The notes below the pieces were generated by a model. The model made no database searches. It was not told the origin of the DNA and saw only the letters and a program-made list of their open reading frames with translations. Made by a program: the position numbers and the translations under genes. This document shows positions 4,298 through 25,401 of a stretch of 32,366 bases of DNA, piece by piece. This stretch comes from Draconibacterium orientale (lineage in GTDB: Bacteria > Bacteroidota > Bacteroidia > Bacteroidales > FEN-979): NCBI GenBank assembly GCA_020718225.1, contig DYSO01000014.1, positions 1-32,366 on the forward strand. The letters are read 5' to 3'. Within the stretch, counting starts at the first letter, position 1; each line of letters opens with the position of its first letter.

Positions 4298-6676
4298 ATG
4301 AAATTCCTTCCTTTTATTGCCATCCTGCTCTTCACCGGTATCACGGCAACGGCACAGCAGCAATCACCGCTACCTGTAATTACCGGTCCCGTCTATTTTG
4401 ATATCTCGCCCCCGTTGCGCGATATGGTCCCAACCCTTGTTAAAAAATTCGATGGCAGCTGGAAAGATGGTGTGGTGAAAAACTTTACCGATCAACGTGG
4501 AAATTCCGACAGGATTCCCGGTATTGAGGGGATCCCGGATCCAGGGTTACAGAATTTTTTTGGCCACCGGCTCACCGATACCACCATTTTGAATTTCGAT
4601 GCCATGGGGAATGGCGCCGGATATGTGCCACCCGACACCCATGGCGATGTGGGGTTTAACCATTATTTTCAGGTGGTCAATTGTTCATATGCTATTTATA
4701 ACAAAACCGGTTCATTGATTTTCGGGCCTTATGCAAACAGCGCCATCTGGAACGGAATGCCCAACAACTCAAACGATGGCGATGCCATTGTGCTGTTCGA
4801 TGAACTGGCAAACCGCTGGTTGTTCTCTCAGTTTTCCCTTCCCGGAGGTTCCTCCAGCCCCCCCTTTTATCAGATGATTGCCGTTTCACAGACCGCTGAT
4901 CCTACCGGGAGCTGGTACCGTTATCAATACGAGTTCAGTGCCATGCCCGACTATCCAAAATTCGGAATTTGGCCCGATGGGTATTACATGTCGACCAACG
5001 ATTTTGTGAGTGGTGAAGGATGGGTTGGAAACGGGGCCTGTGCTTTCGACCGGGATGCCATGCTCGCCGGAGATCCGGATGCACAACGAATTTATTTTAC
5101 CCTGCCCGCTGGAAACGAAGGTTTTATCTCTCTGTTGCCTGCCGATTGTGACGGCCCTTTCCCGGCCATGGGAACACCCAATTACTTTACCTATATTAAA
5201 ACCGACGAACCCCAACACCTTGGAATCATTGAATTTCATACCGACTGGGCAAACCCGGCCAATGCGACCTTCAACAACACCATCTACCTTGAAGTAAATC
5301 CTTTTTACACCCTGGGTGGTTTTGATAATGGAATCCCTCAGAAAGATTCGCCCCAGGAATTGGAAACACTTTCCGACCGACTGATGTACCGTCAGCAATT
5401 TCGTCGGTTCAGCGATTGTTCATCCATGGTGTTGAACCATTCGGTGGATGCCGGCTCCGGAGTATCCGGAATCCGCTGGTATGAGCTCAGAAACACCGGA
5501 GACGGATGGTCGCTATATCAGCAGTCAACCTACGCCCCCGATAGCCATTCCCGATGGATGGGAAGCATTGCACAGGACTCCTCCGGTTCTATCGCACTGG
5601 GATATTCCGTTTCAAGCGCCACCATGTATCCGGCAATCCGCTATACCGGCCGGTTGAAAACCGACCCGCTGAATGTTATGACAATCAATGAACGCACCAT
5701 CATTAACGGCGGCGGGTCTCAATTAGGCAGCTGGAGCGGACGCAGCCGCTGGGGCGATTACAGCGCCATGAGCATCGACCCCGCTTCGCCGACAACATTC
5801 TGGTACACAACAGAATATTATGCCACAACTTCCGGCAGCTCCTGGCAAACCCGGGTTGGATCGTTTACATTCGAAAACGTTTTTTCATCGGTGGCATCTG
5901 CTACCCCAACCGTTCTTTGCAGTTCCAGTACCGATTCCGTGCAACTTAATGTGTATGCTTACGGAGGTTCGATGAACTATACCTATTCGTGGAGCTCTGT
6001 GCCGCCTGGCTTCTTTTCAACCCTCCCAAATCCCCGGGTACACCCGCTGGAAAACACCACCTATGCAGTAACAGTGAGCGACGGATTTCAAACCCGATAC
6101 GATACCGTACCGGTCAGAATTGTACAGGCCGTCACTGCATCAGTCGGAAATGATACCATTGTTTGCTGGTACACATCCCCAATACCCATTTCAGCAACTG
6201 CGGAAAATTATAGCAGGGCTGTGTGGGGAACCGGCGGTGACGGACATTTTAGCGATATGTTCGCACTCAGTACCAATTACTATCCCGGAATGGAAGACAA
6301 AACAGCGGGACAGGTTGATCTGATATTCTTTGTTCGGCCCATTGTCCCATGCACGGGAAATCTCATGAAGATCAAACATATAACCCTCGATCCCTGTACA
6401 GGGATTGAAGAGCCCGGGGAAAATGAAATAAAGGTAGAAGTGCAACCCAATCCGGCAAGTGATAAAATTACGATTTCGTTAACCGGGATTGACCATCTTC
6501 CGGGAACGATATCCCTGATCAACTCCAAAGGGGTGGTTATTCACGCGATGCCCTATCAATCAACCGATAATCGGCTTATTCAGGATATGGATATTAAAAA
6601 TTTTCAGAAAGGGGTTTATCTTCTTCGGATAAGCAACGGGTCATGCGAAAAAACGAAAAAATTTGTTATTCAATAA
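4298..6676 (+). CDS. Secreted protein with C-terminal T9SS type A sorting domain
   Basis: I start the gene at the ATG at 4298, giving 792 aa and a clean signal peptide (MKFLPFIAILLFTGITATAQ). A longer reading from a TTG at 4235 would add a non-signal tail. The large central part (about 75-520) has the repeated aromatic and glycine pattern of an all-beta extracellular domain, with a conserved-looking block PPDTHGDVGFNHYFQVVN near 115. I do not recognise its function; a BNR/beta-propeller-like fold is a guess. Residues about 530-625 resemble a PKD/Ig-like domain. The last 85 residues match the T9SS type A sorting domain (VEVQPNPASDKITIS, then GVYLLRISNG and KKFVIQ), which directs export and attachment or release at the cell surface. 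The crotonase gene follows after only 15 nt, but no functional link is evident. A weak promoter-like TATCTTTA lies at 4262. Confidence 0.88.
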   Translation: MKFLPFIAILLFTGITATAQQQSPLPVITGPVYFDISPPLRDMVPTLVKKFDGSWKDGVVKNFTDQRGNSDRIPGIEGIPDPGLQNFFGHRLTDTTILNFDAMGNGAGYVPPDTHGDVGFNHYFQVVNCSYAIYNKTGSLIFGPYANSAIWNGMPNNSNDGDAIVLFDELANRWLFSQFSLPGGSSSPPFYQMIAVSQTADPTGSWYRYQYEFSAMPDYPKFGIWPDGYYMSTNDFVSGEGWVGNGACAFDRDAMLAGDPDAQRIYFTLPAGNEGFISLLPADCDGPFPAMGTPNYFTYIKTDEPQHLGIIEFHTDWANPANATFNNTIYLEVNPFYTLGGFDNGIPQKDSPQELETLSDRLMYRQQFRRFSDCSSMVLNHSVDAGSGVSGIRWYELRNTGDGWSLYQQSTYAPDSHSRWMGSIAQDSSGSIALGYSVSSATMYPAIRYTGRLKTDPLNVMTINERTIINGGGSQLGSWSGRSRWGDYSAMSIDPASPTTFWYTTEYYATTSGSSWQTRVGSFTFENVFSSVASATPTVLCSSSTDSVQLNVYAYGGSMNYTYSWSSVPPGFFSTLPNPRVHPLENTTYAVTVSDGFQTRYDTVPVRIVQAVTASVGNDTIVCWYTSPIPISATAENYSRAVWGTGGDGHFSDMFALSTNYYPGMEDKTAGQVDLIFFVRPIVPCTGNLMKIKHITLDPCTGIEEPGENEIKVEVQPNPASDKITISLTGIDHLPGTISLINSKGVVIHAMPYQSTDNRLIQDMDIKNFQKGVYLLRISNGSCEKTKKFVIQ

Positions 6677-12278: not shown

Positions 12279-14999
12279 ATGCCGGTTTGGTATTTATCGG
12301 AATTAACAAAAACGAAGGTGAAGACTGACTTACTTCGCACTGCAATCCTGGTAATCCATTCCTTGTTTGTTTTTTTCCCGGGATTTTCCCAGGGATACCG
12401 TCCCTACAAAGATCCGGCTTTGCCTGTCGAACTTCGTGTTCAGGACTTGCTGTCAAGAATGACTGAGGTTGAAAAATTCAGGCAGCTTTTTATGATCCCG
12501 GGAGATATGACCATCGGCAAGGAGAATCTCGAGTCCGGGTTGTTTGGCCTACAGGTATCTGCAAAGGGAACCAAATCAGATGCAGCAGGCCAGATGCTGA
12601 CCTATGGCGACTCAGGAACTGTAGGACAGCATGCAATGAAAATCAACGAATTGCAAAAATTTTTCAAGGAAGAGTCGAGACTGGGAATTCCGATAATCCC
12701 CTTTGAGGAGGCGTTGCACGGATTGGTTTGTAAGGGAGCTACGATCTTTCCACAGGCCATAGGTCTTGCTGCCTCTTTCGACATTGACCTGATGCATCAG
12801 GTTGCCGGAGCGATAGCCGCAGAAGCAAGATCAAGGGGTATCCGGCAGCTCCTTTCCCCGGTACTGAACATTGCCCGTGATGTTCGCTGGGGCCGCACCG
12901 AGGAGACCTATGGCGAAGATCCCTGGCTGGTTTCACAAATGGGACTGGCATACATATCCGAAATTGAGAAAGCAGGTATTGTTGCCACACCCAAGCATTT
13001 TGCCGTGAATTCGGGTGAGGGCGGCCGCGACAGCCATCCGGTTCATTATAACGAACGGCTGATGGAAGAGGTATATTTCCCGGCTTTCAAAACGGCCATC
13101 GGTTCCGGCAATGCGCAATCGGTGATGACTGCCTATAATTCATTTGACGGCTCCCCCTGCTCTGCCAACAACTGGCTTTTAAATAAAAAACTGAAGCAGG
13201 AGTGGAGTTTTCGGGGCTTTGTGATTTCTGATGCTTGTGCTGTCGGCGGCGCCAATGTGCTGCACTATACGGCCGCTGATTATGATGAGGCCGGAAAGCA
13301 AGCTGTTGAAAACGGACTTGATGTGATATTTCAGACCGATTTTAGCCATCTGTCGCTCTTTTCTGGTCCATTTATTCAGGGAACAGTGAGGCATGGGGCT
13401 GTCGACAGCGCTGTAAGCCGCGTTCTCCATGCCAAATTCAGTCTTGGACTGTTTGAAGACCCCTATACAAATCCTGAATCGGCCAACCGGCTGAACAATG
13501 CCAAAGAACACCGCGAACTGGCATTGAAAGCAGCCAGGGAGGCTATCGTACTGCTGAAAAATGAAAACAAAATATTACCGGTTTCCCCAAACGTCAGGAC
13601 GATTGCCATTATTGGCACCGATGCCACGGAAGCGCGGCTGGGTGGATACAGCGGCCCGGGAAGCGACAAGATTTCCATTCTGGAAGGGGTCAGGCAAACC
13701 GCTCCTGAAAATCTTGCCATCGTTTATAGTCCGGGCTGTGGAAGGAACCACCCTACCCATCTCACCGTACCACCCGAAAACCTCTGTCATGATTCTGCAA
13801 ATGAAACACTTCCCGGGCTTCAGGCGGCCTATTTCAACAACATCACACTCGAAGGAGAGCCCCTCATTATTCGCACCGATGTCGCCATTGATTTCGGTTG
13901 GACACTTTACGGACCCGACCCTGCCCTCCCCAACGACTGGTACTCGGCAAGCTGGACCGGAAAGATCATCGGAAATTCAACGGGTACTTATAAAATCGGT
14001 ATCGAGGGTAACGACGGTTACCGTTTGTACCTGGATGGCAAACAGATCATTGATAATTGGGTGAAAAAATCCTATGGTGTAAAACTGGCCGACTTTGAAT
14101 TTTTCAAAGGAAGGGAATATGATATAAAGCTGGAATATTTTGAAAGTACCGGAAAAGCCCGTCTGAAACTGGTGTGGGATGCAGGATTTACCGATACTAC
14201 CGACCTGGCCATTGTCAGGGCAGTGGAAGCATGCAGAACTGCCGATCTTGTGATTGTTGTCGCAGGAATTGAGGAAGGAGAATTCCGCGACAGATCATCG
14301 CTGGCGTTACCCGGCAGACAGGAGGAGATGATCCTGGCCATTGCTTCAACCGGTAAACCCATGGTTGTGGTGATTACAGGTGGTAGCGCCGTCACGATGA
14401 ATCAATGGATCAGCAAGGCAGGAGGGATCGTTGATGTGTGGTACCCGGGTGAAGCAGGTGGTATCGCGGTTGCCGATATTCTTTTTGGGAAGTATAATCC
14501 GGCAGGCAGGTTGCCCATTACATTTCCGATAACCGAAGGACAATTACCGCTTGTCTATAATCAGAAGCCGACCGGAAGGGGCAATGATTACAACGACCTC
14601 TCGGGTATGGCGCTCTTTCCCTTCGGATTTGGTCTTAGTTACTCCACTTTTGAATATGGAAACCTCCGGTTCCACAACGAGACCATCCATCTGGGGGATT
14701 CTGTCGTTGTGCAATTTACCCTGAAAAACACCAGTAGTATAATAGGTGATGAAGTTTACCAGGTGTACATTCGCGATGTTTTATCATCGGTTGCCAGACC
14801 GGAAATGGAGTTGAAAGGGTTTGGGCGTGTCACCCTGAATGCCGGTGAAACGAGAGAGGTCTCAATCACCTTGCCACCCGATTGCCTGTCGATGCCGGAT
14901 GTCAACCTGAAACCGGTTGTTGAGCCGGGACGGTTTCGGGTTATGGTAGGTGCATCGTCGGAGGATATACGGTTACGGGGTGTTTTAAACGTCAAATAG
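12279..14999 (+). CDS. Glycoside hydrolase family 3 beta-glycosidase with inserted PA14 domain
   Basis: This secreted enzyme has 906 aa from the ATG at 12279. A GTG at 12318 would give a more ordinary signal peptide (KTDLLRTAILVIHSLFVFFPGFSQG with start V14), and I cannot decide between them. The GH3 N-terminal barrel (about 55-395) contains the nucleophile D318 in GFVISDACAV, plus LLSPVLNIARDVRWGRTEE and TPKHFAVN. The GH3 C-terminal domain is split. Its first part (410-490) is followed by a PA14 domain at about 512-640 (EGNDGYRLYLDGKQIIDNW), and the remainder resumes with EEGEFRDRSSLALPGRQEE, which carries the probable acid/base Glu. A fibronectin-III-like domain closes the protein (about 795-900). 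PA14 insertions in GH3 enzymes shape the active-site pocket. The likely activity is beta-glucosidase or xylosidase on oligosaccharides; the exact sugar is not determined. No SusCD pair is nearby. Confidence 0.93.
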   Translation: MPVWYLSELTKTKVKTDLLRTAILVIHSLFVFFPGFSQGYRPYKDPALPVELRVQDLLSRMTEVEKFRQLFMIPGDMTIGKENLESGLFGLQVSAKGTKSDAAGQMLTYGDSGTVGQHAMKINELQKFFKEESRLGIPIIPFEEALHGLVCKGATIFPQAIGLAASFDIDLMHQVAGAIAAEARSRGIRQLLSPVLNIARDVRWGRTEETYGEDPWLVSQMGLAYISEIEKAGIVATPKHFAVNSGEGGRDSHPVHYNERLMEEVYFPAFKTAIGSGNAQSVMTAYNSFDGSPCSANNWLLNKKLKQEWSFRGFVISDACAVGGANVLHYTAADYDEAGKQAVENGLDVIFQTDFSHLSLFSGPFIQGTVRHGAVDSAVSRVLHAKFSLGLFEDPYTNPESANRLNNAKEHRELALKAAREAIVLLKNENKILPVSPNVRTIAIIGTDATEARLGGYSGPGSDKISILEGVRQTAPENLAIVYSPGCGRNHPTHLTVPPENLCHDSANETLPGLQAAYFNNITLEGEPLIIRTDVAIDFGWTLYGPDPALPNDWYSASWTGKIIGNSTGTYKIGIEGNDGYRLYLDGKQIIDNWVKKSYGVKLADFEFFKGREYDIKLEYFESTGKARLKLVWDAGFTDTTDLAIVRAVEACRTADLVIVVAGIEEGEFRDRSSLALPGRQEEMILAIASTGKPMVVVITGGSAVTMNQWISKAGGIVDVWYPGEAGGIAVADILFGKYNPAGRLPITFPITEGQLPLVYNQKPTGRGNDYNDLSGMALFPFGFGLSYSTFEYGNLRFHNETIHLGDSVVVQFTLKNTSSIIGDEVYQVYIRDVLSSVARPEMELKGFGRVTLNAGETREVSITLPPDCLSMPDVNLKPVVEPGRFRVMVGASSEDIRLRGVLNVK

Positions 15000-23901: not shown

Positions 23902-23925
23902 GGTATTTTGTTTTTACATTCGATA

Positions 23926-23967
23926 AAAAAAGGACTGTAAAAGTACAAATTCATACTTTTACAATCC
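23926..23967 (-). terminator. Intrinsic terminator after the small membrane protein gene
   Basis: On the minus strand GGATTGTAAAAGTA pairs with TACTTTTACAGTCC across an 8-nt loop, with one mismatch, and is followed directly by a run of seven T. It lies about 35 nt past the stop at 24002 and fits a rho-independent terminator, though the stem is AT-rich. Confidence 0.65.
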
Positions 23968-24001
23968 CTGGCAGTTTTTCCCGATCCCCGGTTAACCCGG
24001 A

Positions 24002-24358
24002 TTATCTTTTTTTACTGTTGACAATAAAAAAATAGATCAGAAAACCGATGGCGATAAACACAAGTTCGATCCCGAACGGCATAACCGATTCATAGTTTTT
24101 CACCCATTTAAAAGTATCGCCCCAGCTTAAAAGCTCAATGATGATCATTCCGGTCCCGGCCATCAGGGCAACCAGTCCCCATTTTAAAGTCGGGTAACGG
24201 TTTTCTTCCTGGTTCTGTTTTATGGGTTCCAGAATCCCGGCATGGTCAAGATGCCCGGCTTTAATGATTTTCCGTTTTAATAAAAAATCGGTAAATATTT
24301 TAATCAATTGGTAGATCCCGAAGAACACCACCGCGGTTATTAAAACTTCTTCTGTCAT
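24002..24358 (-). CDS. Small membrane protein, possibly DUF6249-like
   Basis: This 118-aa protein has three hydrophobic segments (about 5-25, 60-80 and 93-113), a polar cytosolic-looking loop (28-55) and a basic C-terminus NSKKR. The layout resembles DUF6249 membrane proteins that accompany ECF sigma genes in Bacteroidetes; this match is by overall look only. It is divergent from the ECF sigma gene at 24452, sharing a 94-nt intergenic region that contains a large dyad, so the two may be co-regulated. No function can be assigned. Confidence 0.72.
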   Translation of the reverse strand: MTEEVLITAVVFFGIYQLIKIFTDFLLKRKIIKAGHLDHAGILEPIKQNQEENRYPTLKWGLVALMAGTGMIIIELLSWGDTFKWVKNYESVMPFGIELVFIAIGFLIYFFIVNSKKR

Positions 24359-24388
24359 GGCTTTTGTTTTTTAATGTTAATTTTGATA

Positions 24389-24444
24389 ATTAGTCGAAGG
24401 CGCTGAAAAAAAGTTGCAACTTTTTTCATTTAGGTGCGACTAAT
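24389..24444. promoter_or_regulatory. 56-bp dyad in the divergent sigma factor / membrane protein promoter region
   Basis: ATTAGTCG (24389-24396) and CGACTAAT (24437-24444) are perfect inverted arms, and a second exact palindrome, AAAAAAGTTGCAACTTTTTT (24407-24426), sits between them. Both share exactly the same centre (24416.5). The 10-nt stretches between inner and outer arms are essentially unpaired. The shared centre suggests one structure, either a two-level operator for a dimeric regulator or a cruciform/hairpin. It covers the GTG at 24434 that would otherwise extend the sigma gene. Confidence 0.7.
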
Positions 24445-24451
24445 AAACCAG

Positions 24452-25027
24452 ATGAACGATGTTGACCTGATAGCACAGATCCGCTGCGGAAATAAGAATG
24501 CATGCAGGATTTTAGTTGAAAACAATAAAAACCTGGTGTGGCATATGGTTCTGCGGATGGTAAACCAACCGGAAGATGCCGAGGATATTTGTCAGGATAT
24601 TTTTCTGAGCGTTTTCAGGAACATCGGGAATTTCAGGGGCGATTCGAAGCTTTCGTCCTGGATTGGTTCCATTGCGTATCATGTGTGCATTGATTTTCTG
24701 AGAAAAAAGGGAAAAGAAAAAATGATATTTTCCGGAAATCCTGTTGTTGATGACAAAAAGGGTTCGCCTGTAAACATGACGGCAGAAAACATAGACCGTT
24801 CCCGTTTAAAAGCCGTGGTTCATGATCTTATTGATCGGTTGCCGGTATCCTATCGAACGGTGATTACATTGTATCACCTTGAAGATTGTTCCTACAGGGA
24901 AATTGCAGCTATCACGGGAATGCCCGAAGGAACGGTAAAAAGTTATATCAGCCGGGCCCGGGAAATGATCCGGGAACAGGTGGTAAGATTGATACCGGAT
25001 ATTCGGCCGGTTCTCTTTGAAATTTAA
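24452..25027 (+). CDS. ECF-type RNA polymerase sigma factor
   Basis: From the ATG at 24452 the protein is 191 aa. Region 2 (about 15-90) shows NNKNLVWHMVLRMV, DAEDICQDIFLSVFRNIGNF and SSWIGSIAYHVCIDFLRKK, the core-binding and -10-recognition segments. Region 4 (about 130-180) has LPVSYRTVITLYHLEDCSYREIAAITGMPEGTVKSYISRAR, a clear sigma-70 HTH. The linker is short, as in ECF factors. I rejected a GTG at 24434 because it lies in the dyad arm. The membrane protein gene 14 nt downstream is a good anti-sigma candidate. The dyad immediately upstream may be autoregulatory. Confidence 0.95.
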   Translation: MNDVDLIAQIRCGNKNACRILVENNKNLVWHMVLRMVNQPEDAEDICQDIFLSVFRNIGNFRGDSKLSSWIGSIAYHVCIDFLRKKGKEKMIFSGNPVVDDKKGSPVNMTAENIDRSRLKAVVHDLIDRLPVSYRTVITLYHLEDCSYREIAAITGMPEGTVKSYISRAREMIREQVVRLIPDIRPVLFEI

Positions 25028-25041
25028 ATTATCTTTGTGCC

Positions 25042-25401
25042 ATGGAAAAAAATCTAAACGCTGAGCTGGATGCCCTGATAGAAGAAGCGCTGTGTCAACC
25101 GCCGGAAATTTCGGTCCCCGACGGCTTTACCGACAGGATGATTGCTTCGGTGGCCAGGCATTTTATCTGGAAAGAAACACTGAGGGATTTTCTGTACAAA
25201 TGTTTGATTGCCCTGGGCGCACTGGCGGTTTTCAGCATCATCTTTTTCTTCGTTGCCATTCAATCGCCGGATATACTGGTTGCAACTTTCAAAGAACAAT
25301 GGAAATTTGTTGTTTTTGCAGCTTCCATTGGGTTTTTTGTCCTTTTCACCGATCAGGTCCTCCTCAGGTACCTGTTCAGGAATTCAAGGTCGTTTGCGTG
25401 A
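25042..25401 (+). CDS. Small two-TM protein, candidate anti-sigma partner
   Basis: This 119-aa protein has a cytosolic-looking N-terminus (1-45, LDALIEEALCQPPEISVPDGFTDRM) and two hydrophobic segments (about 52-73 and 88-108). The acidic N-terminal region followed by PDGFTDRMIASV resembles the amphipathic start of small anti-sigma-type proteins in Bacteroidetes, but there is no zinc HxxxCxxC motif. Position 14 nt behind the ECF sigma gene argues for an operon and a partner role. A TATCTTTG sequence at 25030-25037 ends 4 nt before the ATG and could be a coincidental -7 box. Function is inferred from context only. Confidence 0.75.
   Translation: MEKNLNAELDALIEEALCQPPEISVPDGFTDRMIASVARHFIWKETLRDFLYKCLIALGALAVFSIIFFFVAIQSPDILVATFKEQWKFVVFAASIGFFVLFTDQVLLRYLFRNSRSFA

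Follow-up and report, generated by a model that had tools for sequence, protein, structure and literature searches.

Within the window, i.e., the whole stretch of 32,366 nucleotides analyzed here, the plus-strand gene at positions 24452 to 25027 encodes an ECF sigma factor of 191 amino acids, whose ATG start codon was set by orthologue alignment and adjoins a predicted transcription start. The protein matches Pfam Sigma70_r2 and Sigma70_r4_2 as well as TIGR02937 above cut-off, and no sigma3 match is listed; sigma2 plus sigma4 only is the domain composition of ECF (group IV) sigma factors. The next gene on the same strand (25042-25401) encodes a small membrane protein that combines an N-terminal stretch of about 45 soluble residues with two hydrophobic membrane helices. 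It gave no match to known anti-sigma families, and its position and layout make it a candidate anti-sigma factor. A profile of this protein matched a reading frame in 29 of 30 loci, the sole miss being a locus that ends soon after the sigma gene (L164); the profile was built from 11 of those genomes, and 18 of the 19 independent loci were matched. On the minus strand, divergent from the sigma gene, lies a gene for a membrane protein of 118 amino acids (24002-24358). It scored 28.4 bits against DUF6249 (PF19762), which is below the Pfam cut-off of 33, although all 13 of 13 members of the divergent-gene family match DUF6249 at E <= 0.1, and it is therefore referred to as DUF6249-like only. Structure models of the two membrane proteins were of low confidence, with mean pLDDT values of 64.6 and 69.2. 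A strong hairpin with a U-run (23925-23969, minus strand; z -6, 0/200 shuffles equally stable) sits after the DUF6249-like gene and separates it from a gene for a DUF5698/DUF2179 protein. It is a probable intrinsic terminator, and the divergent transcription unit thus probably stops there.

The ATG codons of the divergent gene (24358) and the sigma gene (24452) are separated by 93 nt. The first-pass annotation of this DNA had placed a 56-bp dyad (24389-24444) in this divergent promoter gap, the length of which it gave as 94 nt, and the dyad is confirmed. Its description of the dyad itself as two exact levels on one centre agrees with our coordinates. The inner level is an exact 20-bp palindrome, AAAAAAGTTGCAACTTTTTT, at 24407-24426; it is the longest perfect palindrome of the window, the runner-up having 16 bp. 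The outer level is an exact 8-bp inverted repeat, ATTAGTCG at 24389-24396 and CGACTAAT at 24437-24444, which has its centre in common with the palindrome. In dinucleotide shuffles of the window, a palindrome with an arm of at least 10 arose in 13 of 200 cases, while such an arm plus a concentric exact 8-bp outer repeat arose in none (0/200). Two more perfect 16-bp palindromes are present at 6390-6405 (ATCCCTGTACAGGGAT) and 12787-12802 (ACCTGATGCATCAGGT), each within a long open reading frame.

Both strands of the dyad carry GCAAC followed after 16 nucleotides by CGAC (GCAAC 24416-24420 and CGAC 24437-24440 on the plus strand; GCAAC 24417-24413 and CGAC 24396-24393 on the minus strand), and the CGAC boxes are 40 bp apart. 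The inner palindrome (24407-24426) can be read as two overlapping extended -35 elements (TGCAAC) with their T-tracts, and GCAACC-TTT is conserved in relatives. The extended -35 element assigned to the sigma-operon promoter is TGCAACTTTT at 24415-24424 on the plus strand, that of the divergent promoter is TGCAACTTTT on the minus strand at 24409-24418, and the two overlap at the self-complementary TGCA, 24415-24418. The putative -10 elements are the arms of the outer repeat, i.e., CGACTAAT at 24437-24444 (right arm, plus strand) for the sigma operon and the same string on the minus strand at 24389-24396 (left arm) for the divergent gene. The SigW -35 element reads TGAAACnTTT from -36 to -27 (PMC6713349), and the register and T-tract of the dyad's -35 elements agree with it. 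When its numbering is adopted and the G of GCAAC at 24416 assigned to -35, the predicted plus-strand start falls at about 24451, adjoining the sigma ATG at 24452, and the predicted minus-strand start at about 24382, 24 nt ahead of the divergent ATG. GCAAC contains the AAC that is looked for in the -35 element of ECF promoters; in the -10 element, the window has CGAC and thereby departs from CGT, the common form for ECF sigma factors, which is a point against the ECF reading. The -10 elements of the family are likewise CGAC, apart from CGCC at two plus-strand sites, and GTC-type elements are found in other families only.

Conservation points to both sites as promoters. A matrix trained on the sigma-side promoters of 12 relatives, with the window left out, ranked the sigma-operon site and the divergent site best and second best among all window positions on both strands (29.1 and 26.8), with the third-best position at 11.4. 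In a leave-one-out experiment with the sigma-side matrix, the divergent site was the top minus-strand match in 11 of a set of 14 loci that included the window. Of the three loci that were missed, L008 and L012 do not contain the divergent gene within the locus, and L018 has a spacer of N17, to which a matrix without gaps cannot be fitted. In the genomes of L008 and L012 (G025 and G035) the divergent gene is found about 2.7 kb from the sigma gene and is still preceded by GCAACC-N17-CGAC. The 12 family loci with both promoters, window left out, have TT at -29/-28 on each side (12/12 each), and the -10 element is CGAC at 10/12 plus-strand sites, the other two having CGCC, and at 12/12 minus-strand sites. 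GCAAC is likewise present in 12/12 promoters on either strand, a count that is not independent because G[CT]AAC was part of the pattern by which these loci were chosen. Of 43 family genomes, 16 yielded the divergent gene, and GCAAC-N16/17-CGAC lies ahead of it in every one of the 16, G025 and G035 among them.

The arrangement extends well beyond the family. Among the best 80 named loci by sigma alignment, a homologue of the divergent gene lies within the flank in 29 and is divergent in 28; loci with the pair include Larkinella, Chitinophaga, Mucilaginibacter and Pedobacter. From the 29, one locus that is not divergent (L103) was left out, as were five whose sequences, judged by their promoter strings, duplicate counted loci (L069, L070, L071, L077, L082). 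GCAAC-type promoters on both strands were present in 18 of the 23 examined loci with the pair, and one or both boxes were missing in the other five (L075, L089, L093, L100, L104). In L081, the two divergent promoters are identical over 26 bases (GCAACATTTTTTTACCTTGTACAGTC) and lie about 400 bp apart, at 442 and 39 bases upstream of the start of sigma, as if one were an inverted copy of the other. The 29 loci also include two metagenome bins labelled as another phylum, Zixiibacteriota (L097, L102), in which GCAAC promoters likewise accompany the pair on either strand; this may reflect transfer, ancient descent or misbinning.

While both half-units are conserved, the symmetry of the window is not. 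When 36 loci were anchored on the divergent gene, both boxes were matched by pattern in 28, window included; the distance from GCAAC to GCAAC amounted to 18-290 bp in 27 of these and to -2, i.e., an overlap, in the window alone. The count omits three loci with the sigma gene outside the flank (L064, L066, L172), one with no adjacent orthologue in the expected orientation (L156), one that is cut short (L160), one with the sigma gene some 670 bp off (L169), one whose GAAAC boxes escape the pattern (L151) and one in which a longer leader escapes it and both boxes are present by eye (L165). The plus-side -10 element of L163 was miscalled by the pattern and is CGAC by eye. In 18 named loci, the GCAAC boxes are 12-637 bp apart. 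Taken together (27 + 18 loci), the shared centre is kept in 0 of 45 relatives with both half-units, the -35 boxes of which are separated by 12-637 bp. Three relatives of the same genus have their boxes 28, 28 and 32 bp apart, and since many loci are close-set, with 12-34 bp between the boxes, the window is the extreme of a close-spacing tendency. The fused layout GTCG-N15..17-GTTGCAAC-N15..17-CGAC was encountered in 2 of 395 genomes of the phylum, the window's own and G340, with 3 for the reversed control. The G340 match was dismissed as chance, because it lies inside a 529-codon frame, has no relative of the three proteins near it and belongs to a count no higher than that of the reversed control. 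The GTC-type counterpart with AAGTTGCAACTT was absent from all 395 genomes. The overlap is unique to the window in our sample and comes from a single metagenome assembly, although an assembler should not be led astray by repeats as short as about 10 bp. The first-pass annotation had been ready to give up its proposal if the dyad were not conserved at orthologous loci and transcription started elsewhere. The former yardstick would have misled, because the dyad as a whole was seen at this locus in this genome only and its parts are conserved.

We consider it probable, at roughly 0.86, that the 56-bp dyad represents two fused divergent ECF promoters whose -35 elements overlap at TGCA and which are most likely both read by the adjacent sigma factor. 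A perfect palindrome of 20 bp between two divergent genes is also what an operator usually looks like, at which a dimeric repressor or activator would control both genes, and the first-pass annotation had considered a dimeric repressor. The shared centre missing from 45/45 relatives with both half-units, in which each half is conserved together with its own -10 element, argues against an operator and for two promoters that have come together. Furthermore, a scan of the five other neighbouring proteins revealed no transcription regulator, and we regard control through an operator as very unlikely. A hairpin or terminator-like RNA element is harder still to credit: the inverted repeat is followed by a T-run and a stretch of 66 nt folds with z -2.6 (5/200 shuffles equally stable), but the inner palindrome folds no better than shuffles (z -0.11), the dyad lies upstream of both predicted starts and its symmetry is not conserved. 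Chance symmetry without function could account for a 20-bp perfect palindrome alone, given its frequency in shuffles, but not readily for both levels at once or for two halves that are predicted by the relatives' matrix, and we consider it next to negligible.

A different alternative accepts both ECF promoters and has one or both of them read by a paralogous ECF sigma factor, or by several. Bacteroidota genomes encode many ECF sigma factors with related promoters, GCAAC boxes also occur upstream at other ECF loci that were examined, and overlapping recognition has been discussed for Flavobacterium (PMC9723704). The adjacent sigma factor is favored by exact co-occurrence: of 61 related genomes, 13 contain a sigma orthologue (E <= 1e-30), and precisely these 13 contain the divergent gene (E <= 1e-8). 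It is also favored by the distribution of a strict motif, GCAACCTTT-N12..13-CGAC, which was searched for in the 61 relatives and tallied by hand; this stricter string has no match in the window itself. The 13 sigma-bearing genomes contain 22 matches, 18 of them at this locus and 4 elsewhere, versus 10 in the reversed control, and the 48 other genomes contain 10, versus 13 in the control. Five of the 14 off-locus matches were inspected; four lie in open frames of more than 120 codons (L036, L045, L049, L055), and one (L053) overlaps frames of 77 and 46 codons close to the end of a contig. The -10 elements contribute less. Within the order, both sides are of like type, GAC/GAC or GTC/GTC, at every classable locus (L058 and L059, with CGCC on the plus side, were left unclassed; L163, L151 and L165 were typed by eye). 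In L151 (genome G572), the gap between the divergent gene and the sigma gene shows GAAAC...TGTC on both sides instead of GCAAC...CGAC, i.e., a joint switch. A tree of 31 sigma proteins requires a single GAC/GTC change. Among the 18 loci outside the order, three (L090, L094, L106) combine one type with the other, so a rule that the two sides always change together holds within the order and fails outside it. With one event on the tree and unlike -10 types at 3/18 loci, which speak for paralogous sigma factors, covariation of the -10 elements lends little weight to a single sigma factor; the near-confinement of the strict motif to the sigma locus makes the stronger argument. Residues that separate GAC-type from GTC-type sigma factors were set aside as confounded with ancestry. 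The mixed -10 types detract from one argument, the breadth over which the layout recurs adds to another, and our confidence in fused promoters read by the adjacent sigma factor is unchanged; reading by paralogues is unlikely.

The first-pass annotation had guessed that it is the neighbouring ECF sigma factor that may read the divergent pair, and GCAAC-N16-CGAC on each strand, its conservation and the exact co-occurrence in 61 genomes all lend support to this idea. A wider regulon was not apparent in the organism's own genome, where GCAAC-N14..18-CGACTA has 4 sites, two of them at this locus, versus 15 in the reversed control, and GCAACYT-N14..15-CGAC has 7 sites, again two at this locus, versus 13. 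The other five GCAACYT sites (L019, L020, L021, L022, L025) are inside open frames of 582, 640, 196, 810 and 749 codons. Since there is no excess over the reversed control outside the locus, the assignment of specificity to this sigma factor rests on the locus itself.

The statement in the first-pass annotation that the gap is free of TAnnTTTG is literally wrong. TAATTTTG at 24378-24385 on the plus strand matches this primary-sigma -7 box of Bacteroidota. By eye, it is accompanied by no TTG or TTTG at the usual -33 spacing, and in the homologous gaps of 30 loci TAnnTTTG was seen 7 times against 4.7 expected, which is no clear enrichment. On these two grounds the match may be due to chance; alternatively, it could form a weak basal promoter providing a basal transcript of the sigma gene.

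For the sigma gene itself, 14 of 15 family loci have a distance of 35 between the G of GCAAC and the A of the ATG, and the fifteenth, the window, has one of 36. It is from this conserved promoter, 35-36 nt upstream of the start codon, that we predict the sigma factor to transcribe its own gene. If the register is right, the spacing suggests that the sigma mRNA is nearly without a leader. In Flavobacterium psychrophilum, a mapped species of the same phylum, leaderless mRNAs make up 5.5% (PMC9723704), and judged by that species a near-leaderless sigma mRNA would be an uncommon trait.

How such a promoter pair most likely works can be outlined as follows. Once the sigma factor is released, its holoenzyme would bind the shared core in either of two orientations. 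Rightward transcription, on a nearly leaderless mRNA, would yield more sigma factor together with the membrane-bound putative anti-sigma factor and thus amount to positive autoregulation, while leftward transcription would yield the DUF6249-like membrane protein. In the numbering of one promoter base pairs 24416/24417 would be -35/-34, and in that of its counterpart -34/-35, so that both sigma4 domains would use the same groove. As these base pairs are common to both -35 elements, two sigma4 domains should not fit together, and polymerase would be expected to bind in one orientation at a time. Competition of this kind would count only under frequent firing. In bidirectional promoters of Escherichia coli, basal transcription was too low for competition, and one side was blocked when its opposite was strongly activated (PMC12825309). 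Where relatives have their boxes well apart, both promoters could be occupied simultaneously.

The sequences also suggest how the overlap may have arisen. In an alignment with G005, G006 and G010, the window is about 30 bp shorter; the difference falls right between the boxes, and the spacing to either start codon is similar. The core TGCA reads the same on both strands, and a divergent promoter pair therefore always has two copies of it in direct orientation. Loss of the roughly 30 bp from one TGCA copy to the next would produce GTTGCAAC directly and leave neither promoter damaged. Judged by these four sequences, the fusion may have come about by one deletion between TGCA cores. A further proposal, namely that this single step created a bidirectional ECF promoter with a shared -35 element and turned two co-activated promoters into competing ones, so that every firing would serve either the sigma operon or the divergent gene and the output of the feedback loop would throttle the loop itself, is tentative, and we give it somewhat poorer than even odds.

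The locus offers a natural comparison, in which orthologous sigma and divergent genes have -35 elements that overlap in one species and are 28-32 bp apart in three congeners, and the shared -35 element raises the question whether exclusion at sigma4 alone couples two genes. In addition, the conserved pairing of an ECF sigma factor with a divergent DUF6249-like gene, which ranges in Bacteroidota from Bacteroidales-type genomes to Chitinophaga, Pedobacter and Mucilaginibacter, has apparently not been described. Divergent ECF promoters are a known kind, and it is the shared -35 layout and the conserved sigma/DUF6249-like pairing that look new; a literature search, mostly outside subscription journals, returned no overlapping--35 ECF promoter pair and no DUF6249 protein beside an ECF sigma factor, an absence of little weight.

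Several known systems resemble the locus in part. The SM6 promoters of F. psychrophilum are of ECF type, stem from Bacteroidota and include one ahead of an ECF/anti-sigma pair, as in the window, but SM6 has a CGT box, and GCAAC does not occur in the accessible text of that source (PMC9723704). Divergent PhyR / NepR-EcfG loci likewise have two divergent units at a sigma locus, both transcribed from the sigma factor's own promoters (PMC8103513); unlike there, no PhyR or NepR was present among the window neighbours scanned, and promoter overlap is not mentioned in the accessible parts of the description. Autoregulated ECF sigma/anti-sigma operons, for example those of SigW and RpoE, share with the window a sigma factor with sigma2 and sigma4 only and a -35 element with AAC and a T-tract. 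As in the window, the promoter of such operons directly precedes the sigma gene, and a membrane protein gene comes next (PMC8103513). In contrast to them, the window has CGAC and not CGT as -10 element, its downstream membrane protein matches no known anti-sigma family, and there is a second promoter of like type, divergent from the first and directed at the DUF6249-like gene. The bidirectional promoters of E. coli have in common with the proposed mode of action that one symmetric element is presented in two orientations to mutually excluding polymerases (PMC12825309). They share their -10 element and are read by sigma70, whereas the window, which has no shared symmetric -10, would share an ECF-type -35 element, and its predicted starts face outward at a distance of about 70 bp.
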